Positions 4,228 to 19,795 of a DNA stretch of 21,360 nt are shown piece after piece. Positions within the stretch are counted from its first letter, which is position 1; every line of letters begins with the position of its first letter. The position numbers were made by a program, and so were the translations under genes. This DNA comes from a virus: IMG/VR virus record IMGVR_UViG_3300025418_000393, positions 1 through 21,360 of that record. The stretch is one strand, 5' to 3'. The notes beneath the pieces were generated by a model. That model made no database searches. It was not told where the DNA came from and saw nothing but the letters and a program-made list of their open reading frames with translations.

Positions 4228-4311
4228 ATGAATCGCAAGGCAGATCTATTGCACGGCGTATTTATCCTCACAACTTTTTTCGTAATGTTTAGGGTCGTGC
4301 ATCGTGGCTAA
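4228..4311 (+). CDS. 27-residue single-span membrane peptide
   Basis: A short reading frame runs from the ATG at 4228 to the TAA at 4309-4311, with a very good ribosome site (GGGGAG at 4219-4224). The peptide starts MNRKADLLHG, continues with a hydrophobic span (VFILTTFFVMF) and ends in basic residues RVVHRG. It overlaps the GTG start of the endolysin by 8 bases, so the two are probably coupled. It could be a small lysis effector (holin, pinholin or antiholin) or only a leader that feeds ribosomes to the endolysin gene. The ribosome site and the membrane segment make it more than chance. Confidence 0.55.
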   Translation: MNRKADLLHGVFILTTFFVMFRVVHRG

Positions 4312-5152
4312 CGCGCTCGATATTGTGACGACTGCACAAAAACAGGTCGGTTTTTACGGTGGCACTACTGATGCCAACCCGTATGGCGATTGGTATGGAG
4401 TTCCAAACGAGCCGTGGTGCGCTATGTTCGTATCGTGGGTATTCGCGCAAAATGATCTCTCTCATCTCGTAGCCGCTCAAACTCCTAAAGGGTTCTCGTA
4501 TTGCCCTGCCGGACTTTCGTGGTTTCAGCAACGCAAGGGCGTGGTCAATAAATATGAAGGAAAGCCGGGAGATCTAGTTTTCTTCTCGTGGGCTGGTAAT
4601 GGAATAGCCGACCATGTTGAGATCATCGTTAATGCTTCTCGAGATGGAATTACTACCGTTGGCGGAAATACTGGACCGGAGCACATGACGGATGTATCTC
4701 AATACAACGGACACGGGGTTTATCTTCGGCATCGCTCTTACCTCTATGTGCTGGCGATAGTGCGCCCTGAGTATGAAACTCCGCTCAAGCCAACTACCTC
4801 TCTCGGAACTAACAAACCTTTAGCCATTGGAACCGCCGCCACAACGGCTCTAGGGGCTGGCGGAGTGGCTATCCATCAAAGCACTACGACCCCACCTGCT
4901 AAACCGCTCACAACCGCCTCTGCGCCAGCGTGGAAGGCATCGGATCTAGTGGTAGGGAAGAAAACCGCCGCCGAACTGATAGTCGAAAAGGCTCTCTATA
5001 ACGCCGGACTGATTCCTGCCGTGGCTCAGAACTCGACTTTCACCGCGGCTGATCTTGCCGCCGTTAAGTTGTATCAGAAGAAAGTTGGACTCCCCGTTAC
5101 TGGGATACTGGATCAGGTGACTTATGCCTTACTCGTAAAGGGGATCCAATGA
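4304..5152 (+). CDS. Endolysin: CHAP amidase/peptidase + peptidoglycan-binding domain
   Basis: This 282-residue protein has an N-terminal CHAP domain (about residues 5-155). The catalytic Cys39 is in EPWCAMFVSW, the His104 in ADHVEIIV, and Asn122 in VGGNTG fits the third polar residue. A linker rich in Thr, Ala and Pro (158-210) leads to a C-terminal PG_binding_1-like domain (about 220-282; FTAADLAAVKLYQKKVGLPVTG). The enzyme should cleave peptide or amide bonds in host peptidoglycan. There is no signal peptide, so it needs a holin. The start is a GTG with AGGG about 10 bases upstream, inside the 27-residue peptide frame. The stop overlaps the next ATG (ATGA). Confidence 0.92.
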   Translation: MANALDIVTTAQKQVGFYGGTTDANPYGDWYGVPNEPWCAMFVSWVFAQNDLSHLVAAQTPKGFSYCPAGLSWFQQRKGVVNKYEGKPGDLVFFSWAGNGIADHVEIIVNASRDGITTVGGNTGPEHMTDVSQYNGHGVYLRHRSYLYVLAIVRPEYETPLKPTTSLGTNKPLAIGTAATTALGAGGVAIHQSTTTPPAKPLTTASAPAWKASDLVVGKKTAAELIVEKALYNAGLIPAVAQNSTFTAADLAAVKLYQKKVGLPVTGILDQVTYALLVKGIQ

Positions 5153-8717: not shown

Positions 8718-9266
8718 ATGGCGGGTCGCTTCAACCTCGAGGATTACGACACAGTCGAATCTCGAATCAAAAAGTTTTGGGAGCAGTTCCCAAACGGGCG
8801 AATTCATACCCAGATTATGCACAACGACGATTCTCGATTCATTGTTCAGGCTTGGATCTACACCGATCGAGAAGATCAGCGCTCCGTGACTAGCGGAATG
8901 GCTGAGGAGATTGTTGGCTCTTCAATGGTCACCAAGACTTCCGCTCTCGAAGTATGCGAAACCTCAGCGATTGGCCGCGCACTCGCCAACTTTATCTTCT
9001 CCGGCAATAAGCGCCCATCACGCGAAGAGATGGAAAAGGTTGAGCGCTATGAAAAGAATCCTCGAAAGAATCTTTACGCGGTTCGCACATTAACTCCGGA
9101 GGAATTGGACAAACTTGAGATTGTTCTGGATGAGATCTACAAAACCAACGAAGTTTCCCGACTTCGTGAAATATGGGCAGAACAGAAGGATTTTTTAGAC
9201 TTCTCGATCAAAGGCACAACGCTAAAGGACGCGCTCAATCGAAGAGTTCAGGAGTTGGCAGGATGA
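8718..9266 (+). CDS. Erf-like ssDNA-annealing protein (candidate)
   Basis: This 182-residue protein has the stretch TSALEVCETSAIGRALA at residues 74-90. It is preceded by a beta region including FPNGRIHTQIM, VQAWIYTDREDQ and a TSGMAEE segment. This combination is typical of phage Erf-type and related recombination proteins, which anneal single strands during phage recombination and replication. The C-terminal 70 residues are helical (LTPEELDKLEIVLDEIY). Neighbours (Cas4-like nuclease, phosphoesterase, RusA, SSB) fit a recombination module. The call rests on motif memory. An alternative is the broader group of actinophage proteins with the same motif but no tested function. Confidence 0.65.
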   Translation: MAGRFNLEDYDTVESRIKKFWEQFPNGRIHTQIMHNDDSRFIVQAWIYTDREDQRSVTSGMAEEIVGSSMVTKTSALEVCETSAIGRALANFIFSGNKRPSREEMEKVERYEKNPRKNLYAVRTLTPEELDKLEIVLDEIYKTNEVSRLREIWAEQKDFLDFSIKGTTLKDALNRRVQELAG

Positions 9267-9544
9267 CGACACAACGCACCTCAATAGAGGCAAGGGAGAA
9301 GATCGAGCCGAAAGTTGGATCACTTCGCCGCAAAGTCTATGAACTTTTCATCAACCGAGGACTCACCGGCTTAACTGATAATGAGATCGAGAAGTATCTC
9401 CACTTAGATGGCAATACAGTACGACCGATTCGCGGATCCCTCGTAACAGATGGCTTCGTAATAGATAGCGGCACAACTAGAGATAACGAAAAAGGCAACC
9501 GGTGCATCGTATGGCGATACGCCGAGAATGGGATGATGTTATGA
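9263..9544 (+). CDS. Winged-helix DNA-binding protein
   Basis: This 93-residue protein starts at the ATG at 9263, which overlaps the previous stop and has GGAG at 9251-9254. Longer upstream starts in this frame would lie wholly inside the previous gene. The sequence LRRKVYELFINRGLTGLTDNEIEKYL, followed by TVRPIRGSLVTDGFVIDSG and a beta wing (RCIVWRY), reads as a winged helix-turn-helix. Likely a small regulator or a DNA-binding accessory of the recombination module. No specific family is claimed. Confidence 0.72.
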   Translation: MTTQRTSIEAREKIEPKVGSLRRKVYELFINRGLTGLTDNEIEKYLHLDGNTVRPIRGSLVTDGFVIDSGTTRDNEKGNRCIVWRYAENGMML

Positions 9545-9807
9545 AACTGTTTTGCAAAACTAAACAACACTGGGAAATCAACAACGGCAAGTTAATCCTC
9601 GGAGCAAAAACTGACGAGTTCCTCGCTCAGCAACTTGCAAAGATGACGGCTCGCCTTGAGGCAGAGATCCGCCTCGATATTTACGATCAGATCTGCGCTC
9701 TCGATTTCACTAATAATCGAAAAGTGATCGTCAAAGCGGGTATCGAGAATGTCGCTCTGCAAGTGCAGGATATTTGCGCTCAGATTGCGTTAGGTGAGAA
9801 AAAGTGA
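9541..9807 (+). CDS. Small hypothetical protein
   Basis: This 88-residue protein is read from the ATG at 9541, which overlaps the previous TGA. An alternative ATG at 9502 would overlap more. It is mostly helical (FLAQQLAKMTARLEAEIRLDIYDQICAL), with an Asn/Lys-rich turn (DFTNNRKVIVKAGIE) and a second helix ending ALGEKK. No catalytic motif and no family recognised. Its coupled position in the recombination operon suggests a partner or regulator role. Confidence 0.7.
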   Translation: MKLFCKTKQHWEINNGKLILGAKTDEFLAQQLAKMTARLEAEIRLDIYDQICALDFTNNRKVIVKAGIENVALQVQDICAQIALGEKK

Positions 9808-10169
9808 GCGTAGTCACCCCTGTGCAAGTTGAAACCCGCCTCAAGGATCTCAGCAAGTTAATCGACGAGGCGCACAACGATCTCGTAGATGCTGAAGCCG
9901 CTTATCATCAACACAAGGCATATTACGAAGTTGCGATGGCTACTTCCCGCATGGGGTTAGCGCAAATATCTTCACCTACTGGTAGGAATTACACGGTGCA
10001 GGAGCGCGAAGATATTGCACTCCTTGATAACAAAGATTCTCACATGGCGCTTGCCGAATCTGAAGCGACCGTCAAGGCTAATCGGGCAAATGTGGCTCGC
10101 CTTAGAGTTCAGGTAGATATTGCTCGCTCGATCGGAACTTCGGTTCGCACAGGATTTGATGCTTCGTGA
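9804..10169 (+). CDS. Coiled-coil hypothetical protein of the recombination operon
   Basis: This 121-residue protein reads from a GTG that overlaps the previous TGA. Nearly the whole protein is helical with heptad character (VETRLKDLSKLIDEAHNDLVDAEAAYHQH; later ESEATVKANRANVARLRVQVDIARSIGTSVR). A short YTVQEREDIALLD segment lies in the middle. Similar proteins ending in 'ARSIGTSVR' occur beside exonuclease genes in actinophages as I recall. No function is known to me. It is coupled to the Cas4-like nuclease by a 4-base overlap. Confidence 0.72.
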   Translation: MSVVTPVQVETRLKDLSKLIDEAHNDLVDAEAAYHQHKAYYEVAMATSRMGLAQISSPTGRNYTVQEREDIALLDNKDSHMALAESEATVKANRANVARLRVQVDIARSIGTSVRTGFDAS

Positions 10170-12759: not shown

Positions 12760-13269
12760 ATGGCAACAAGTATCTCAACAACAGATACCGCGAAGATGAT
12801 CCGCAAGGCTCTCAAAAATTCTTTCCCTTCAACTAAGTTTTCGGTTCGCTCTCACTCATATTCAGGCGGATCCTCGATCCACATTTCATGGATTGACGGA
12901 CCAATGGAAAGCGAAGTAGATGCAATCTCAAAGTTTTACCAAGGCGCATCATTTGACGGAATGACCGACATGAAGGATTACCACAACTCGCTCATTATCC
13001 TTGAGGGCGACGATCTTCCAACAGAGGTTCATTTTGGAGCGGATTTTGTTTTCACGAACCGCGAAGTTTCAAAGGAATACAAAGCCAATCTCATCGCAAA
13101 GTTTGAAGAGATCTCAGGCAAAGAATACAACGACAATGAAACTTACGAATTAGCCGAAACTGGACTTTATGCCTTCGGATCGTTTTTCGGTATGCCTCGA
13201 ATGTATGGATGCCAAATCGTAAGCCGTATGTCCTACATCTTCCCTGCTCAGGAAAAGGCGGTGGCATAA
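12760..13269 (+). CDS. LPD29-domain protein
   Basis: This 169-residue protein resembles the LPD29 'large polyvalent protein-associated' domain found in phage and plasmid proteins. It shows MIRKALKNSFPSTKFSVRSHSYSGGSSIHISW, then DGPMESEVDAI and FDGMTDMKDYH, then FGADFVFTNREVS. In large polyvalent proteins the domain travels with anti-restriction and DNA-entry functions; here it stands alone. Its biochemical role is unknown to me. It is the first gene after the second conserved element, so it is probably co-regulated with the 8141 operon. The Ser-Gly-Gly-Ser turn and aromatic strands look structured. Confidence 0.7.
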   Translation: MATSISTTDTAKMIRKALKNSFPSTKFSVRSHSYSGGSSIHISWIDGPMESEVDAISKFYQGASFDGMTDMKDYHNSLIILEGDDLPTEVHFGADFVFTNREVSKEYKANLIAKFEEISGKEYNDNETYELAETGLYAFGSFFGMPRMYGCQIVSRMSYIFPAQEKAVA

Positions 13270-13379: not shown

Positions 13380-13574
13380 ATGAAGTACGAGTGCTTCAAC
13401 TGCGGCAAGAAATTTGCAAAGCAATACCAATTGTTTCTCCACTATGACTTCCACAAGGGCGAGCCAATCGTAAGCGCGGCCGGATGCACTTGCGGCAAAG
13501 ATTACGACATTCGCTCAGGCACTTGCTTGAATTGCGGAACAACACACTCAACAGGATGGGCGGTAAAAGCATGA
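13380..13574 (+). CDS. C2H2 zinc-finger plus zinc-ribbon protein
   Basis: This 64-residue protein starts MKYECFNCGKKFAKQYQLFLHYDFH. C5, C8, H21 and H25 give C-x2-C-x12-H-x3-H with Phe and Leu at the usual core positions, a classic C2H2 finger. Residues 36-52 (CTC...CLNC) form a second, ribbon-like Cys cluster. C2H2 fingers are rare in bacteria and phages and can bind DNA, RNA or protein. It precedes and overlaps the next gene (ATGA). A regulator role is likely but unproved. Confidence 0.75.
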   Translation: MKYECFNCGKKFAKQYQLFLHYDFHKGEPIVSAAGCTCGKDYDIRSGTCLNCGTTHSTGWAVKA

Positions 13575-13861
13575 GAATTACTAGCAACGATTTTGATCAC
13601 TTAACAGTCAATTCGACTAACTGGAAATCAACGGCGAGCGCATGGAGAGAGCAAGAAGGCCGCTTCGAGGATGTTGATTTCGCTCAACCAGACACGGAAG
13701 TCGATTACTCCTTCGAGCGCGCTTACTGGGCTCAGGATTATCCGGCGGTATTATTCATTAAAGCATTTCTTGAATCGCTTGGCCATGAGTATCGGATTTA
13801 TTGGGATACCGCTGACGATAGTTACATGATCACAACAAACTATGGAGGGATCCTTCAATGA
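13571..13861 (+). CDS. Hypothetical acidic protein
   Basis: This 96-residue protein starts at the ATG at 13571, overlapping the previous TGA. An upstream start in the same frame at 13484 would lie inside the zinc-finger gene and is unlikely. It is acidic and aromatic (FEDVDFAQPDTEVDYSFERAYW, then FIKAFLESLGHEYRIYWD and a beta end DSYMITTNYGG). No catalytic motif or family recognised. It overlaps the next start by 4 bases. Confidence 0.7.
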   Translation: MRITSNDFDHLTVNSTNWKSTASAWREQEGRFEDVDFAQPDTEVDYSFERAYWAQDYPAVLFIKAFLESLGHEYRIYWDTADDSYMITTNYGGILQ

Positions 13862-13962
13862 TTGAGATCATCGGATTAGGGCTGGCGACAGTTACCGCAC
13901 TTTTCTGCATTATCTTGTGGCTTGAGCAGACTCCCGATTGGGATGAGGATGTGACCTTATGA
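13858..13962 (+). CDS. 34-residue single-span membrane peptide
   Basis: A short frame is coupled by ATGA to both neighbours. Residues 2-23 form a membrane span (IEIIGLGLATVTALFCIILWL). The tail EQTPDWDEDVTL is acidic and would lie on one side of the membrane. One of three such peptides in the accessory block (with 14104 and 14791). No family recognised. Confidence 0.6.
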   Translation: MIEIIGLGLATVTALFCIILWLEQTPDWDEDVTL

Positions 13963-14111
13963 ATTGCATTTGGTGCGGAACTAAGGGCGGATTTGTGAAC
14001 CGCTTGATAATTAACCTCGTCGGAGATGATGAGGCGATCTACGAGTGCGAATGGTGCTCGCTAAAAATAAGCGTTGACCTACTAAAAAAAGGAGTTGATT
14101 GGGATGATTAA
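13959..14111 (+). CDS. 50-residue zinc-ribbon protein
   Basis: A short frame starts at the ATG at 13959, overlapping the previous stop. C3-x2-C6 and C30-x2-C33 make a four-cysteine zinc ribbon (NCIWCG ... ECEWCS) around a short beta hairpin. The C-terminal part is helical and basic/acidic mixed (LLKKGVDWDD). A nucleic-acid- or protein-binding role is likely; no family is assigned. AGGAG near its end serves the next gene, whose ATG overlaps. Confidence 0.65.
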   Translation: MNCIWCGTKGGFVNRLIINLVGDDEAIYECEWCSLKISVDLLKKGVDWDD

Positions 14112-14268
14112 GAAGATGGATCGTAAATATGTAATTCGCCGCCGGGTGGTATTCGGAACGCTGGCGATCGTTGCCTTGATCGGCGCGTACTTTATCGTCA
14201 ATCACATTTGGTGGACAGGCTCAGGCTACTGTTGGGGCGACATGATCAAGTGCGAAGGCGGTCTCTAA
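14104..14268 (+). CDS. 54-residue single-span membrane protein
   Basis: A short frame from the ATG at 14104 with a good AGGAG ribosome site. A basic N-terminus (KKMDRKYVIRRR) precedes a membrane span (VVFGTLAIVALIGAYFIV). A short C-terminal part has two Cys (C43, C50; GYCWGDMIKCEGG) that could form a disulfide outside the cell. The topology, basic end inside, follows the positive-inside rule. No family recognised. Its TAA shares a base with the next ATG. Confidence 0.65.
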   Translation: MIKKMDRKYVIRRRVVFGTLAIVALIGAYFIVNHIWWTGSGYCWGDMIKCEGGL

Positions 14269-14588
14269 TGCGATACGATGAAATGATGAACATTCCAACT
14301 TGCGGAAATAAATGCGGCAAGTTGACGAAATCAACGCCGGTTCTTGTTGCGGTGTATTACGCGCAGTACGACTATGACGACTCAGACCAGTTCACCTGTG
14401 GTTGGTGTTCAAACAACGATCTATGGACAATTCCTGAGATGATGTTTAACGAAGAAGAAAATTACTTTGTGACCCCTTGTTGTCATACTGAGGCAATTAC
14501 TTCGCTAGTACCTGAAAACCCTAGAGAAGATCACGATCAAGCGCGGGAAGATTACGAGTCTTTCGTATGGGCGGTAACGGGTCGATGA
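14268..14588 (+). CDS. Cys-rich hypothetical protein
   Basis: This 106-residue protein starts at the ATG at 14268 (TAATG with the previous gene). Cysteine pairs occur at CGNKCG, CGWC and PCC, suggesting one or two zinc sites. The middle is Tyr/Asp-rich (VYYAQYDYDDSDQF), and the acidic end is NPREDHDQAREDYESF. No family recognised. It is one of several Cys-pair proteins in the block. Confidence 0.7.
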   Translation: MRYDEMMNIPTCGNKCGKLTKSTPVLVAVYYAQYDYDDSDQFTCGWCSNNDLWTIPEMMFNEEENYFVTPCCHTEAITSLVPENPREDHDQAREDYESFVWAVTGR

Positions 14589-14791
14589 CACACGATGAAT
14601 TGCTGGCAAGTATAAACAACTTTACAGTTGTTGACGGTATCTTTATGAAAGATGCCCTTCGTGCTGTATTGGAATTGCATAAGCCGATTGAAGGGAAATG
14701 TAATGCTTGCGAACAATGGACAAACGAAGGTGCTTATCAACTTCCTTATCCCTGCCCAACCATTCAAGCCATTGAGAAGGAGTTACAGTAA
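14585..14791 (+). CDS. Small protein with YPCPT motif
   Basis: The ATG at 14585 overlaps the previous TGA and gives 68 residues; an alternative ATG at 14567 lies further inside the previous gene. It has a helical part (FMKDALRAVLELHKP), then KCNACEQW and YPCPTIQAIEKEL. The 'LHxP...CxxC...YPCPTIxxI' pattern is common in small actinophage and Streptomyces proteins, with no known function. Probably a zinc-binding small protein. Confidence 0.7.
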   Translation: MTHDELLASINNFTVVDGIFMKDALRAVLELHKPIEGKCNACEQWTNEGAYQLPYPCPTIQAIEKELQ

Positions 14792-14898
14792 TGGGATACG
14801 ACACAAGAGATCACGATCATACAATTCCAATCGTATTAAGCATTATCGCCATAATTTTTAATATCGTTACGATTCTCACTTCAACAAGAGGTCACTAA
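14791..14898 (+). CDS. 35-residue single-span membrane peptide
   Basis: A short frame starts at the ATG at 14791, overlapping the previous TAA. AAGGAG at 14777-14782 is a strong ribosome site. A polar, His-rich start (GYDTRDHDH) precedes a membrane span (IPIVLSIIAIIFNIVTIL) and a short basic end. No family recognised. Its TAA shares a base with the next ATG. Confidence 0.6.
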   Translation: MGYDTRDHDHTIPIVLSIIAIIFNIVTILTSTRGH

Positions 14899-15062
14899 TG
14901 CCCGTATATGAGTACAAGTGCGATGGATGTTTTAGGATCTATGAGGTTAGCGCCTCAATCCATGCCACGCCCGAATTACCCGAATGTTGCGGAAAGATGG
15001 AGCGGATCTTCTCGTCCTTCGGCGTTTCCTTCAAAGGCGACGGATGGGGCGGAAGTAAATAG
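14898..15062 (+). CDS. FmdB-like zinc-ribbon protein
   Basis: This 54-residue protein begins MPVYEYKCDGCFRIYEV, the signature of the FmdB/CxxC_CxxC_SSSS zinc-ribbon family. C8, C11, C30 and C31 bind the metal. The ending FGVSFKGDGWGGSK also matches the family's 'FxxKGxGW' end. FmdB was named as a putative regulator of formamidase; the biochemical role of phage copies is unknown. It closes the stop/start-overlap chain that begins near 13571. Confidence 0.85.
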   Translation: MPVYEYKCDGCFRIYEVSASIHATPELPECCGKMERIFSSFGVSFKGDGWGGSK

Positions 15063-15108
15063 CCGCTAAACTTAGACAGTCCGCTATCTCCCGAAAGGAT
15101 GTACGAAA

Positions 15109-15207
15109 ATGGATGATACAAAAGTAAGCCGCCACAAATGTGGTGAATGGATTTACGAGGGTAACGCCTGCCAAGTCTGCACGAATCGGGGTAAGGTCGC
15201 CCGATAA
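15109..15207 (+). CDS. 32-residue Cys/His-rich peptide
   Basis: A short frame from the ATG at 15109 has AAAGGA upstream. H9, C11, C21 and C24 could form a small zinc site (RHKCGEW ... ACQVC). The C-terminus is basic (TNRGKVAR). The AAGG inside its end lies 7 bases before an ATA that may start the next gene. No family recognised. Confidence 0.5.
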   Translation: MDDTKVSRHKCGEWIYEGNACQVCTNRGKVAR

Positions 15208-15239
15208 GGGCTAAAGGAAAGATCCTTTTAGTAGCCATC

Positions 15240-15596
15240 TTGGTGGGATCTTTTCAAACGGTTGTAGCGCAGGCGGCAAACGCTCCGCGTGAAAGCCTCT
15301 CGTTTCTCATGCACCCAAAACTTTACGCTCACATGAAAGTGCCAAGCATGGGTCAATTCGTGTGCCTCGATAAATTGTGGACACAGGAGTCGCACTGGAA
15401 CGCTAAAGCCTTGAACAAATCCTCCGGTGCGTTCGGTATCGCTCAATTCCTGCCGACCACATGGGGTAATTACAAGTTCGAATACAAGCCTAAAAGCCCA
15501 ATGACTCAGATCGACTACGGCCTGCACTATATTAAGGTCCGTTACGGCTCTCCCTGCGCCGCATGGAGGCACGAGATGAGATACGGCTGGTACTAG
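15240..15596 (+). CDS. Secreted lytic transglycosylase-like (SLT) protein
   Basis: With the first standard start (TTG 15240) the protein has 118 residues. The SLT-type core shows the catalytic Glu in WTQESHWN (E50), then SSGAFGIAQFLPTTWGNY, and a final YIKVRYGSPCAAW. These enzymes cut the glycan strands of peptidoglycan. The frame is open upstream to 15195. Translating it from an ATA at 15204 adds RAKGKILLVAIL, giving a full signal peptide with a basic start, hydrophobic core and AQAANA end. The annotated TTG would cut this signal in half, so the true start is probably upstream and non-standard. Separate from the endolysin; it may act at the cell surface early in infection. Confidence 0.75.
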   Translation: MVGSFQTVVAQAANAPRESLSFLMHPKLYAHMKVPSMGQFVCLDKLWTQESHWNAKALNKSSGAFGIAQFLPTTWGNYKFEYKPKSPMTQIDYGLHYIKVRYGSPCAAWRHEMRYGWY

Positions 15597-15917
15597 GTGG
15601 ATCAAAAAATCGTTGCGCTTGTAGAGGCAAGGGCGGGGTATTACTGCGAAACCTGCGGTGGCCCTGCCCTTGAGTCTATGGCGCTCCACCACAGAAAATT
15701 AAAGTCCCGAGGCGGCAAGGATTCCGTTTCTAATTTGATCCGCGTTCACCATGAGTGCCATAACCTCGGGACTAATTCAATTCATAAGAACCCATCTATC
15801 GCAACGGATAAAGGGTGGATGGTCAGTAGTTGGGCAGATCCGGAGGCCGAGCCATTTCTGCAACCTGATGGCAAGTGGGTAATCTTGAAAAATGACGGAA
15901 GCGTTCAAGTAATGTAA
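15597..15917 (+). CDS. HNH endonuclease-like protein
   Basis: This 106-residue protein reads from a GTG directly after the previous TAG. HNH features are C17-x2-C20 (YYCETCG), LHHRKLKSRGG (H31, H32), N46 in SVSNLIRVHHECHN (H51, H52, C54, H55), and H63. The family cuts DNA with a bound metal ion; Cys pairs hold a structural zinc. The C-terminal 35 residues form a beta segment (WVILKNDGSVQVM) not needed for catalysis. It is unlike the HNH gene at 3431 and lies about 2.1 kb from the terminase, with SSB and DNA-modification genes between. Confidence 0.85.
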   Translation: MDQKIVALVEARAGYYCETCGGPALESMALHHRKLKSRGGKDSVSNLIRVHHECHNLGTNSIHKNPSIATDKGWMVSSWADPEAEPFLQPDGKWVILKNDGSVQVM

Positions 15918-15947: not shown

Positions 15948-16316
15948 ATGAATCAGATCATTATCGAAGGCAATCTCGGGTCAGATCCGGAAATTAAAAT
16001 GCTCAAGGACGAAGTGCTTGCATCGTTCTCGTTAGCCCATACGCCGCGCAAGAAGGTCAATGGCCAGTATGAAGATGGCGAAACAATTTGGTTCCGAGTT
16101 ACTTTTTGGAATAGCAAGTCAGATGCAGTGATCGAGAATCTCCAAAAAGGAGATCGCATCGCAGTCGTTGGCCGATTGGCACAATCAACTTATACGACAA
16201 AAGATGGCGAGAAAAAAATCTCACTTGAAATTTCTGGAACAGATTTTTATCTAAAGGCGCGCACAAAGCCTAAGGAATCATCATTTACTCAGGTTGAGGA
16301 AATGCCATCATGGTAG
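15948..16316 (+). CDS. ssb: Single-stranded DNA-binding protein
   Basis: This 122-residue protein has an OB-fold SSB pattern: MNQIIIEGNLGSDPEIKML, WFRVTFWNSKSDAVIENLQKGDRIAVVGRL, and a final strand KKISLEISGTDF. Length is short compared with bacterial SSB, since the flexible tail is only about 20 residues. The C-terminus EEMPSW keeps the acidic-plus-hydrophobic form of the usual DDDIPF tip, so it could still call host partner proteins. The ribosome site GGAAAGG is strong. It protects single strands during replication and recombination. Confidence 0.92.
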   Translation: MNQIIIEGNLGSDPEIKMLKDEVLASFSLAHTPRKKVNGQYEDGETIWFRVTFWNSKSDAVIENLQKGDRIAVVGRLAQSTYTTKDGEKKISLEISGTDFYLKARTKPKESSFTQVEEMPSW

Positions 16317-16493: not shown

Positions 16494-16727
16494 ATGATCC
16501 CCATGATTATCGACAAGGAAGTGATCACGCTCGCCGATATAGACGAAGCGATCGCCCATCTTGCCGTTATGCTCAAGGATCGGTACGGAAATAGGCTCAC
16601 CCATCAGCGGAAGGCGTTCCTGATGGGCGAGATGGATTCATTACTTGACGCTAGATTAGAGGCAGTAAATAATGGAATTGGAAACGGTAGCAATCGGGGG
16701 CCTGACTCTCGATCCACAGAACGCTAG
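16494..16727 (+). CDS. Small hypothetical protein
   Basis: This 77-residue protein starts one base after the previous stop. It is helical (LADIDEAIAHLAVMLKDRYGNRLTHQRKAF, then EMDSLLDARLEAVNN). The last 18 residues (from GIGNGSN onward) lie in the overlap with the ParB-like gene and look unstructured. No family recognised. Confidence 0.65.
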   Translation: MIPMIIDKEVITLADIDEAIAHLAVMLKDRYGNRLTHQRKAFLMGEMDSLLDARLEAVNNGIGNGSNRGPDSRSTER

Positions 16728-17271
16728 GAAACATTCGAGCCGTAATCTTGCCGCGATTAAGGCCAGCCTCGAAAAGTTTGGCCAGCGCAAACCTCTCGTT
16801 GTTCATAATGGCGTAGTAATTGCTGGCAACGGAACGCTTGAAGCCGCTCGATCTCTCGGATGGAAAGAGATCGCAGTAAGCGTATGTCCTGATGATTGGG
16901 ATTCCGAGACCGCCAAGGCTTATGCGCTCGCAGATAATCGCTCCGCTGAATTAGCCGAATGGGATGAGATCGCGCTATCTAACCAACTTGTTGATCTTGA
17001 GGATCTTGGTTGGGATATTGAAGGCCTAGGATTTGAGAAGGTCGCTAAAGCCTCCGCCGATGACTGGTCAGATGCGTTTGATAAGACCACTAAAGAGCAG
17101 TCGCCATTTCAGCAAGTCACTTTTACCCTGAGCCATGAGCAAGTCGAAATCGTGAACAACGCGATTTCTGCCTCCCTTGCGTTGGGCGAATTCCCTGATG
17201 AGGAAAATACGAACAAGAATGGCAACGCCTTGACTCGGATGGCTGAGATATTCCTAGGGACTCAGGTATGA
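16672..17271 (+). CDS. ParB-like nuclease-domain protein
   Basis: This 199-residue protein has an N-terminal ParB/Srx-type domain: LDPQNARKHSSRNLAAIKASL, then GQRKPLVVHNGVVIAGNGTLEA (37-58) and YALADNRSAELAEWD. In phages this domain is often next to DNA methyltransferase or Mom-type genes, sometimes labelled nuclease. The C-terminal 70 residues (FQQVTFTLSHEQVEIVNNAIS ... ALTRMAEIFLG) are a separate helical part. Its stop overlaps the Mom-like gene (ATGA), so the two are expressed together and probably work together in DNA modification or its targeting. Confidence 0.85.
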   Translation: MELETVAIGGLTLDPQNARKHSSRNLAAIKASLEKFGQRKPLVVHNGVVIAGNGTLEAARSLGWKEIAVSVCPDDWDSETAKAYALADNRSAELAEWDEIALSNQLVDLEDLGWDIEGLGFEKVAKASADDWSDAFDKTTKEQSPFQQVTFTLSHEQVEIVNNAISASLALGEFPDEENTNKNGNALTRMAEIFLGTQV

Positions 17272-18044
17272 GCGCGAAAGACATAATCTTAAAGCCGATC
17301 ACCTCCGCTGAGGCCAATGCCTTAGTCCGGAAGATTCATTACAGTAAAAAGGTCGCGCCAAACTCCCAAATCCACATCGGCGTTTTCTATAACGGGAAAT
17401 TAGAGGGAGCGCTTCAATTTGGCCCGTCTATGGATAAGCGCAAGACTCAGGGGCTCGTCAAAGATACCCCGTGGAACGGCTTCATCGAATTAAACCGGAT
17501 GGCCTTTAGCGATGCCCTGCCTAAGAACAGTGAGTCCCGCGCAATAGGCGTAGCGCTTAAGATGCTCAAGAAGCACGCTCCCCATTTGCAGTGGGTAATC
17601 TCTTTCGCCGATGGCACTCAGTGCGGAGATGGAACGATCTACCGCGCCTCAGGCTTCGTGCTGACTCAGATTAACAAGAACAAGACTATTTGGAGACTGC
17701 CTGACGGCGAATATGCCGCAGACATTAACTTCACCACAGGGGTTTCATCAGAGTTGCAGAAAAAGTGGGGCAAGGTTGGCACTGAGTCAAGCCATAAGTT
17801 CCTCAACAGTATTGGCGCACAGAAGGCTGAGGGATTCCAACTGAGGTATGTCTATTTCCTCGATCCTGCGGCTAAAGAGCGCCTCACAGTTCCTATCTTG
17901 CCGTTCTCTGAGATCGACAAGGCAGGTGCTAGGATGTACAAAGGTTCACGCCCTGAAAGCATAAACAGCGATGCGTCTAACTTCCTGTTAGAAGATAGCG
18001 GTGCAATTCCGACTTCAGGGCTCCAACCTAACGAAGAATCGTAA
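17268..18044 (+). CDS. Mom-like DNA adenine modification protein (GNAT fold)
   Basis: This 258-residue protein resembles phage Mom proteins. Markers are LVRKIHYSKKVAPNSQIHIGVFYNG, LEGALQFGPSMDKRKTQ, the block WNGFIELNRMAFSD followed by NSESRAIGVALKMLKKH, and FADGTQCGDGTIYRASGF (113-130). Phage Mu Mom has an acetyltransferase-like fold and converts adenine to N6-carbamoylmethyl-adenine, protecting DNA from host restriction. Actinophage homologues sit beside ParB-like genes, as here. The C-terminal 50 residues (from about 205) are an extension of unknown function. The position just upstream of terminase fits modification shortly before packaging. The chemical product cannot be known from sequence. 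Confidence 0.82.
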   Translation: MSAKDIILKPITSAEANALVRKIHYSKKVAPNSQIHIGVFYNGKLEGALQFGPSMDKRKTQGLVKDTPWNGFIELNRMAFSDALPKNSESRAIGVALKMLKKHAPHLQWVISFADGTQCGDGTIYRASGFVLTQINKNKTIWRLPDGEYAADINFTTGVSSELQKKWGKVGTESSHKFLNSIGAQKAEGFQLRYVYFLDPAAKERLTVPILPFSEIDKAGARMYKGSRPESINSDASNFLLEDSGAIPTSGLQPNEES

Positions 18045-18051
18045 TCCGTTT

Positions 18052-18537
18052 ATGGGTGAAAATAATCCGGATGTAATTAGTATTGACCCTGCTCTGTTTG
18101 AGAAGGAGCGGCAGGTTGTTCAGTATCGCCAAGGCGGAGCAACATTCGATCAGATCGCCAAGCGCTTAAATTATGCAGATGAGTCAGGCGCTCGAGCCGC
18201 GTTCAAACGAGCGATGGAGCGTATGCGTGATGATGCCCTTAGCGCTGAGATGCGTGAGTTGCATAGGCAGAGGCTCGAAGTTGCTCTCACTGCTATTTGG
18301 CCTGATGTCGTTAAAGGCGATCTCGAGGCAATTAAGGTTATGCTCAAGATATTGGAGCGCGATGCAAAACTCTATGGAATTGACGCGCCAGTAAAAACTG
18401 AGGTGGAGGTGACGAGTTACGATGGAAACCTTTTACGACAGAGAACACGAGAAATTATCAAAGTTATACGAGAAGTTTCAGGATCGCCGGATAGCGTGGG
18501 AGAACGATCTAGCGAGGCCGGAGCAATTACCGAGTGA
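18052..18537 (+). CDS. terS: Terminase small subunit
   Basis: Read from the ATG at 18052 (161 residues); an in-frame GTG at 18001 lies inside the Mom-like gene. An N-terminal helix-turn-helix (VVQYRQGGATFDQIAKRLNYADES) and a helical middle (MRELHRQRLEVALTAIWPDVVKGDLEAIKVMLKILERDAKLYGID) match small terminase subunits, which recognise the packaging site and load the large subunit. The last 38 codons overlap the large-subunit gene by 116 bases in another frame. No strong ribosome site is seen. Position directly before the large subunit is decisive. Confidence 0.8.
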   Translation: MGENNPDVISIDPALFEKERQVVQYRQGGATFDQIAKRLNYADESGARAAFKRAMERMRDDALSAEMRELHRQRLEVALTAIWPDVVKGDLEAIKVMLKILERDAKLYGIDAPVKTEVEVTSYDGNLLRQRTREIIKVIREVSGSPDSVGERSSEAGAITE

Positions 18538-19795
18538 TGATGAAAACTGGTCAATCTATCTTTATTTAGCAGGTCGAGGCGCTGGCAAGACTCGCACTGC
18601 CGCTGAATGGCTGGCGTGGGAAGCAACAACGCAGAACAACACTAGGTGGGCGATTGTCGCTCCGACCTTTAGCGATGTCCGTGATGTATGCGCCGAAGGT
18701 GAGTCGGGAATTATCAACATCCTCAGAGATTACGGATCGCTTGCCGATTACAACAGATCTCAGGGAGCGATCTCTTTAACCAATGGCTCAAAGATCAAAC
18801 TCTTCTCAGCCGATGAGCCTGATCGCTTGCGCGGTCCTCAGCATCACGGGGCTTGGTGCGACGAATTGGCGGCGTGGCGTTATCCGGATACATGGGATCA
18901 ACTTCAGTTCGGTATGCGCTTAGGTAGCCATCCTCGAACTATTGTCACCACAACCCCGCGCCCTGTTGCCCTAATTAGGAATCTTGTTAGCCGCACAGAT
19001 GGCACTGTGAAGATCGTCAGGGGCTCGACCTTCGATAATGCCGACAACCTCGCTCCGCAGGCTCTAGTCGAACTACAAGCCCGATACGCAGGCACCAGAA
19101 TGGGACGACAGGAACTTTACGGCGAGATCCTTGACGAATCAGACTCAGCCCTATGGACGAGAGCGCTGATCGAGGAGGCTCGAATCAAGCCCGAAAATGC
19201 CCCGCCTTATTTCAGGGTTGTCGTTGCTATCGACCCCGCCGTCACAAGCGGAGAAGGCTCGGACGAAACTGGAATCGTGGTCGCTGGCGCTACGCCGGAT
19301 GGTCATTACTACATCCTTGAAGATGCCTCGATGAGAGGAACGCCTGAGAATTGGGCAAGAAAAGCGATCGAGATGTATCGCAAATGGAAATGTGATCGAA
19401 TCATCGGCGAGGCCAACAATGGCGGCGACATGATTGAGTCCCTGCTCCGGCAAGTTGATGCAACGGTCCCGTATCGGAAAGTTCACGCCTCTCGAGGCAA
19501 GCGAGTGCGAGCAGAACCGATCTCTGCGCTCTCTGAACAGTTGCGCCTTCATTTAGTTGGATCAGATTTCTCTCAACTTGAAGATCAGTTAGTCACATGG
19601 GAGCCGGATTCAGATAAGTCGCCCGATCGTATGGATGCGATGGTCTGGGCGGTTTCTGATTTGATGAGCGGATCTAATGCTCTTCGATCTCTGGCGGCCA
19701 TGGCTGATTTCTGTCCGTCTTGCAGATTGCCAGTTGTTAAAAAGACTAAGTTCTGTCCGCGATGTAATACCGCTATCATTACACCTAGTCCGTAA
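18422..19795 (+). CDS. terL: Terminase large subunit with C-terminal zinc ribbon
   Basis: This 457-residue packaging motor has an ATPase domain with Walker A GRGAGKT (51-57) and Walker B GAWCDE (D147, E148). The nuclease domain shows D271 in VVAIDPAV, E330 in GEANNGGD, and D405 in PDRMDAMVW. It pumps DNA into the prohead and cuts it. After the nuclease domain comes a Cys-rich tail, C431-x2-C434 and C445-x2-C448 (CPSC ... CPRC), an added zinc ribbon that most large terminases lack. The start at 18422 has GGAGGTGA at 18405-18412. Confidence 0.95.
   Translation: METFYDREHEKLSKLYEKFQDRRIAWENDLARPEQLPSDDENWSIYLYLAGRGAGKTRTAAEWLAWEATTQNNTRWAIVAPTFSDVRDVCAEGESGIINILRDYGSLADYNRSQGAISLTNGSKIKLFSADEPDRLRGPQHHGAWCDELAAWRYPDTWDQLQFGMRLGSHPRTIVTTTPRPVALIRNLVSRTDGTVKIVRGSTFDNADNLAPQALVELQARYAGTRMGRQELYGEILDESDSALWTRALIEEARIKPENAPPYFRVVVAIDPAVTSGEGSDETGIVVAGATPDGHYYILEDASMRGTPENWARKAIEMYRKWKCDRIIGEANNGGDMIESLLRQVDATVPYRKVHASRGKRVRAEPISALSEQLRLHLVGSDFSQLEDQLVTWEPDSDKSPDRMDAMVWAVSDLMSGSNALRSLAAMADFCPSCRLPVVKKTKFCPRCNTAIITPSP

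Follow-up and report, generated by a model that had tools for sequence, protein, structure and literature searches.

A conserved membrane micro-protein and its zinc-ribbon-type neighbour in a small-gene block of putative actinobacterial phages

Two-part exclusion systems of actinophages have been described for Butters (gp30/gp31) and the related Sbash and CarolAnn (PMC7542560, PMC6426606). In the portions of these reports considered here, a membrane protein and its soluble partner are encoded by adjacent genes, a complex at the membrane is proposed, and the systems are expressed from prophages; the membrane component has four helices, and the soluble component is not described there as a zinc ribbon. 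The gene pair reported here, TM2 and Zn2, can be likened to these systems by layout alone. It also consists of adjacent genes for a membrane and a soluble protein in phages of probable actinobacterial hosts, but TM2 has one helix and 54 residues, and Zn2 is of the zinc-ribbon type. A second comparison is offered by LysF1b (PMC13056207), like TM2 a one-helix membrane protein from phages of Actinobacteria. LysF1b is predicted to be N-out/C-in and lies in a lysis cassette with endolysins, whereas TM2 is predicted to be N-in/C-out and lies away from the endolysin gene. The reading that we rank first, and hold tentatively, is that the coupled TM2/Zn2 pair would act at the actinobacterial envelope, either in superinfection exclusion or in takeover of the host envelope.

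The pair lies in virus record IMGVR_UViG_3300025418_000393, of which a stretch of 21,360 bases (the window) was analysed. The window encodes a WhiB regulator (E 4e-13) together with RusA, HNH, a Mom-like protein and the large terminase. WhiB genes are markers of actinophages (PMC10202952, PMC6802176), and from this gene alone the host is therefore probably an actinobacterium. No near match to a 12-kb stretch of the window was present among 50,697 GenBank phages, and the terminase was less than 60% identical to those of GenBank phages. We read the relatives as lake phages from their record names and from published work on phages of this kind. In lakes, Actinobacteria rank among the most abundant bacteria, and their phages are known mostly from metagenomes alone. 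The block that contains TM2 and Zn2 occupies a zone of exchangeable small genes with RusA on one side and the SLT, HNH and SSB genes on the other (the SSB-like single-strand-binding protein, judging by sequence, at 15948-16316). A stand-alone LPD29 (large polyvalent protein associated domain 29) gene adjoins RusA at 12760-13269 (E 1.4e-24). Elsewhere in the window, a ParB-like gene (16672-17271) shares an ATGA junction with the gene for the Mom-like DNA-modification protein (17268-18044; Pfam E 3.6e-57, PHROG E 1.7e-51), and the large terminase (18422-19795) has a weak C-terminal zinc-ribbon match (DZR, E 0.0024, below cut-off).

An earlier note on this DNA had proposed a chain of eight micro-genes, joined by shared stop and start bases, in which membrane peptides alternate with cysteine-pair proteins. 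All eight frames were found with the coordinates and lengths it gave, on the + strand: 13571-13861 (96 residues), 13858-13962 (TM1, 34), 13959-14111 (Zn1, 50), 14104-14268 (TM2, 54), 14268-14588 (Zn2, 106), 14585-14791 (68), 14791-14898 (TM3, 35) and 14898-15062 (54, FmdB-like). The junction offsets, counted from the overlap of 13571 with its upstream neighbour, are -4, -4, -4, -8, -1, -4, -1 and -1. This neighbour (13380-13574, + strand, 64 residues) meets the block at an ATGA junction, resembles C2H2 and zinc-ribbon proteins (zf-C2H2 E 6e-4, below cut-off) and has homologues in relatives that are 57-77% identical. The three membrane peptides are strongly hydrophobic as claimed, with mean Kyte-Doolittle values over 19 residues of 2.47 (TM1), 2.24 (TM2) and 2.59 (TM3). 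Of the four supposed cysteine-pair proteins, Zn1, Zn2 and the FmdB-like protein do contain paired cysteines, while the 14585 product has one CxxC and a lone cysteine. The alternation is not strict: the Zn2 and 14585 genes are adjacent, the 13571 product is of neither type, and three membrane genes among eight would by chance all be kept apart from one another with P=0.36. Nor does the coupling count as special evidence, because start/stop overlaps are common in the rest of the window, where other ATGA/GTGA and TAATG junctions include four consecutive ones at 9263-10169. Each chain gene also has its own purine-rich, ribosome-site-like stretch upstream (weak for 14585), so the coupling need not be obligatory. 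The frequency of overlaps elsewhere in the genome fits the explanation that we rank second and consider doubtful, namely that these are independent accessory morons in a dense genome, with TM2 and the zinc ribbons acting separately and lying side by side simply because small genes accumulate in this zone.

Frame conservation in relatives, on which the note had staked its proposal, was found: the core frames are kept with the same overlaps, and 73 of 81 junctions at 11 loci had offsets of -1 (33), -4 (31) or -8 (9), the loci not being independent of one another and many contigs being fragments. Homologues in the same order were present in viral-collection contigs L005, L007-L012, L020-L022, L024-L028 and others. 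The core genes are under purifying selection. The five best conserved are Zn1 (dN/dS 0.08), Zn2 (0.09), the FmdB-like gene (0.10), 13571 (0.11) and TM2 (0.14), against a comparison value of 0.04 for the SSB-like gene; TM1 (0.44), 14585 (0.42) and 15109 (0.54) are looser. Genes of 35-60 residues, easily overlooked in annotation, can thus rank among the best conserved of a phage group. In the clade of the window the usual order is 13571, TM1, Zn1, TM2, Zn2 or another zinc ribbon, a variable slot, the FmdB-like gene, a 32-residue Cys-rich gene, SLT, HNH and SSB. The core order is kept in at least seven divergent contigs, but 14585 and 14791 form an exchangeable cassette, and more distant phages retain TM2 but have lost Zn1 and TM1 or carry them in another order. 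The chain is thus not one fixed complex.

The genes around the core pair differ in their relationships. The soluble 13571 protein, at the left edge of the core, belongs to no known family (17-member alignment). Its AlphaFold2 model is confident (pLDDT 86), and a search with it gave no significant fold match in the PDB and four uncharacterised proteins of uncultured Caudovirales in BFVD (E 1e-7 to 1e-8); the protein had no match in INPHARED. An assignment as a LAGLIDADG nuclease half-domain was rejected, as the fold is only faintly alike and I-DmoI matches over about 42 residues only, with E of about 1. The TM1 slot holds a hydrophobic single-helix peptide in 8/8 aligned sequences, with only three invariant residues. 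Zn1 is a two-CxxC protein found at 18 loci in the viral collection; its C3, C6, C30 and C33 are invariant in eight sequences. The FmdB-like protein at the right edge of the block carries MPVYEYKCDGC...CCGK, that is MPxYEYxCxxC and a second Cys pair. It matches positions 1-40 of the 41 of the FmdB-type zinc ribbon (Pfam PF09723, Zn_ribbon_8, E 2.7e-7), nearly the whole model, but with 30.9 bits it falls below the curated cut-off of 34.4.

The variable slot is filled in the window by 14585 and 14791, and both are accessory. The 14585 product, of the CxxC...YPCPTIQAIEKEL type, matches PHROG 23623 (E 6e-4) and 38849 (E 1e-3), a family itself uncharacterised. Its gene is absent in L005 and stands in another order in many relatives. 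The C..C...YPCPTIQAIEKEL family recurs in many of these phages at shifting positions. TM3, a putative membrane peptide, has weak holin-like Pfam and PHROG matches (E 6e-3); it was seen in near-identical contigs only, and its coding status is therefore without independent support. In L008 the slot holds an FmdB-like gene and a different membrane peptide, of 33 residues, in the place of TM3; other small genes occupy it elsewhere, and in L005 and L011 it is empty. The pair region itself appears mosaic. Between the window and L005, identity is mostly 97-100% to either side but drops to 70-87% over most of 14140-15840, with the FmdB-like gene at 97%. Between the window and L008, it reaches 96-100% over 14240-14539, where L008 has a near-identical copy of Zn2, and is 66-88% in the adjoining genes. 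These profiles indicate that the pair region was exchanged recently, and such mosaicism of the zone also suits the view of the genes as independent morons.

TM2 consists of a basic N-terminal anchor, one hydrophobic stretch and a C-terminal tip, HIWWTGSGYCWGDMIKCEGGL, with two cysteines. A search with a 16-member alignment gave 118 matches in the viral collection, from which 80 contigs were kept; the family is present in at least 80 phage contigs with at least three genome architectures. These comprise a window-like set, a clade with the anchor MTRKWRL, in which the genes behind TM2 are mostly encoded on the opposite strand, and another whose anchor is KYYQ.RK. In L132 and L134, TM2 lies upstream of Zn1, so TM2 is kept even where gene order differs. 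A mobile small-gene family, F.DE...YLVT......W.AP..L.RTE.TETE, occurs near TM2 at L046:1364-1522, L041:6511-6669, L030:5753-5950 and L038:5814-6020. Among 26 diverse TM2 members C43, G45 and C50 are invariant and W37 and K49 nearly so, and most invariant residues sit in the tip rather than in the helix. TM2 had no match in Pfam, PHROGs, the PDB or INPHARED (GenBank phages), and two scans of 84,980 prokaryote genomes (GTDB) with TM2 alignments found none. Queries with the block, 13571, Zn2, three versions of TM2 and the FmdB-like gene likewise gave no meaningful match among GenBank phages. The suspicion that these genes may be undescribed was supported, and TM2 and its putative zinc-binding partner are an undescribed pair.

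By the positive-inside rule TM2 is predicted to be N-in/C-out, which would probably place the two cysteines outside the cell. Exported disulfides are expected to form there, and the tip cysteines may well be joined in this way. In the mechanism that we favour, TM2 would sit in the cytoplasmic membrane with its basic N-terminus inside and its short two-cysteine tip outside, and Zn2, made from the overlapping next gene, would most likely cooperate with it at the inner face of the membrane. The tip would probably bind a component of the host surface or cell wall, or an incoming phage; facing its target, it would be swapped among phages while the anchor is kept. The most likely outcome would be that competing phages are shut out or that the host envelope is altered in the course of infection. 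The evidence for this mechanism is drawn entirely from sequence. The earlier suggestion of an anti-defence or host-takeover role for the block is plausible from its context.

Where SLT loci have no type I tip, the corresponding slot encodes proteins whose basic anchors are similar but whose tips differ. The type II tip (P..CRV......FCK in L166) is carried by L044 and L166, with a further type II protein, in L160, located elsewhere and on the other strand; the type III tip (TRD.CYVG..GNALGYGSC in L175) is carried by L163, L175, L185 and L189. The slot protein of L046/L047 has an anchor and no cysteine tip. The anchors compared are short and basic, which tells against the favoured mechanism; their similarity to type I was judged against 386 basic N-termini. 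The anchors of L160, L166, L175, L185 and L189 scored 55-67, reached by 0-1/386, and the single N-terminus that scored as high was that of the L046/L047 slot protein itself. The L163 anchor (type III) was marginal (score 37, 1/386), and the similarity of the L044 anchor (type II) was not significant against the same set. We favour the interpretation that tips were exchanged on a kept anchor. The alternative, divergence of the tip beyond recognition, sits less well with the repeated combinations of tip and anchor, three anchors carrying type II tips and four carrying type I tips. Strong conservation of the tip within each type, combined with its exchange between types, suggests contact with a target that varies among hosts or rival phages, and a conserved, unannotated micro-protein of this kind suggests a contact surface on which selection keeps changing.

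Zn2 (TC...C, CGWC and PCCH motifs; 10-member alignment) is the usual gene directly behind TM2 in the clade of the window, and the one-base overlap between the TM2 stop and the Zn2 start is kept in relatives. Zn2 homologues also stand directly behind TM2-type genes with other tips, in L166 (E 5.8e-18) and L175 (E 8.7e-28). That Zn2 stays behind the membrane gene across tip types I, II and III argues against independent morons. So does the excess of mutually unrelated CxxC families in this position. At least two CxxC motifs were present in 44 of the 85 genes directly behind TM2-type genes, or 9/23 families, compared with 31/418 families in the whole background (P=5e-5) and 13/146 in the multi-member background (P=5e-4); with multi-member families on both sides the figures were 5/9 and 13/146 (P=1e-3). 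The enrichment was tested after the pattern had been noticed, and the background holds some spurious frames. Upstream of TM2-type genes the enrichment was not significant (4/21 families, P=0.15). The proposed succession of a membrane gene and a zinc-ribbon gene is thus a real pattern beyond the window, and the downstream enrichment makes a membrane/zinc-ribbon complex, as the note had envisaged, a reasonable inference. Two observations side with the independent-moron view: small genes with CxxC motifs are frequent in the zone (50/450), and in TM2 clade I-B such a gene stands behind TM2 in 0/18 cases, so a zinc-ribbon partner is not universal. Zinc binding by Zn2 is predicted; its structure model (pLDDT 54) was too poor to support a fold search.

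Binding to nucleic acid or polymerase is frequent among CxxC ribbons. This general tendency and the adjacency of TM and Zn genes could be explained if the ribbons bound host RNA polymerase or nucleic acid for takeover and TM2 tethered or sequestered them at the membrane. We regard this as improbable: Zn1 and Zn2 match no nucleic-acid-binding family in Pfam or PHROG, and the conserved, exchangeable outer tip is left unexplained. The link to nucleic acid raised in the earlier note thus found no support. A broader form of the envelope reading is possible, if rather uncertain, in which TM2 would represent an undescribed and widespread class of phage membrane micro-proteins that keep their anchor, interchange their two-cysteine outer tips and are paired with unrelated zinc-ribbon partners. 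Such proteins would confer specificity in modular fashion at the cell surface of freshwater Actinobacteria, with each tip directed at its own host component or rival phage. TM2 and Zn2 offer a short, testable pair for studying how these phages may alter the host surface or exclude rivals.

Downstream of the block, a 32-residue Cys-rich peptide gene (15109-15207, + strand), which keeps its position before the SLT gene in most relatives, is followed by a gene for a secreted SLT transglycosylase (15204-15596, + strand; Pfam SLT E 3.1e-7, PHROG transglycosylase E 3e-25). SLT lies at most 3.5 kb from TM2 in 8/8 clade B and 8/8 clade C loci with long flanks, and single-helix lysis proteins such as LysF1b are known in actinophages (PMC13056207). 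Together with the weak holin-like matches of TM3, this raises the third-ranked explanation, that TM2 is a small holin-like or accessory protein which times lysis with the nearby transglycosylase. It is unlikely, however. A separate endolysin gene lies at 4304-5152 (PHROG E 9e-39), about 9 kb from TM2, which itself stands among RusA, SSB and WhiB genes, away from lysis genes; only 19 of 34 long SLT loci have TM2; its conservation is in the tip rather than the helix; its predicted orientation is the reverse of that of LysF1b; and the 26 TM2 members have no holin match in Pfam or PHROG. Linkage of SLT and TM2 was not accepted as proving that the two act together: WhiB and other genes show linkage just as close, and TM2 is missing from many SLT loci.

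The SLT gene probably starts at the ATA at 15204, whose last two bases lie within the TAA stop of the preceding gene (ATAA). An ATA was present at this position in 13 of 14 loci read upstream, L134 alone being without it, and behind it comes a stretch that resembles a signal peptide and is conserved, I(R/K)...K(I/V)L..A..VG...V.A.AA (15195-15260 region). An AUA start, if conserved, would be unusual.
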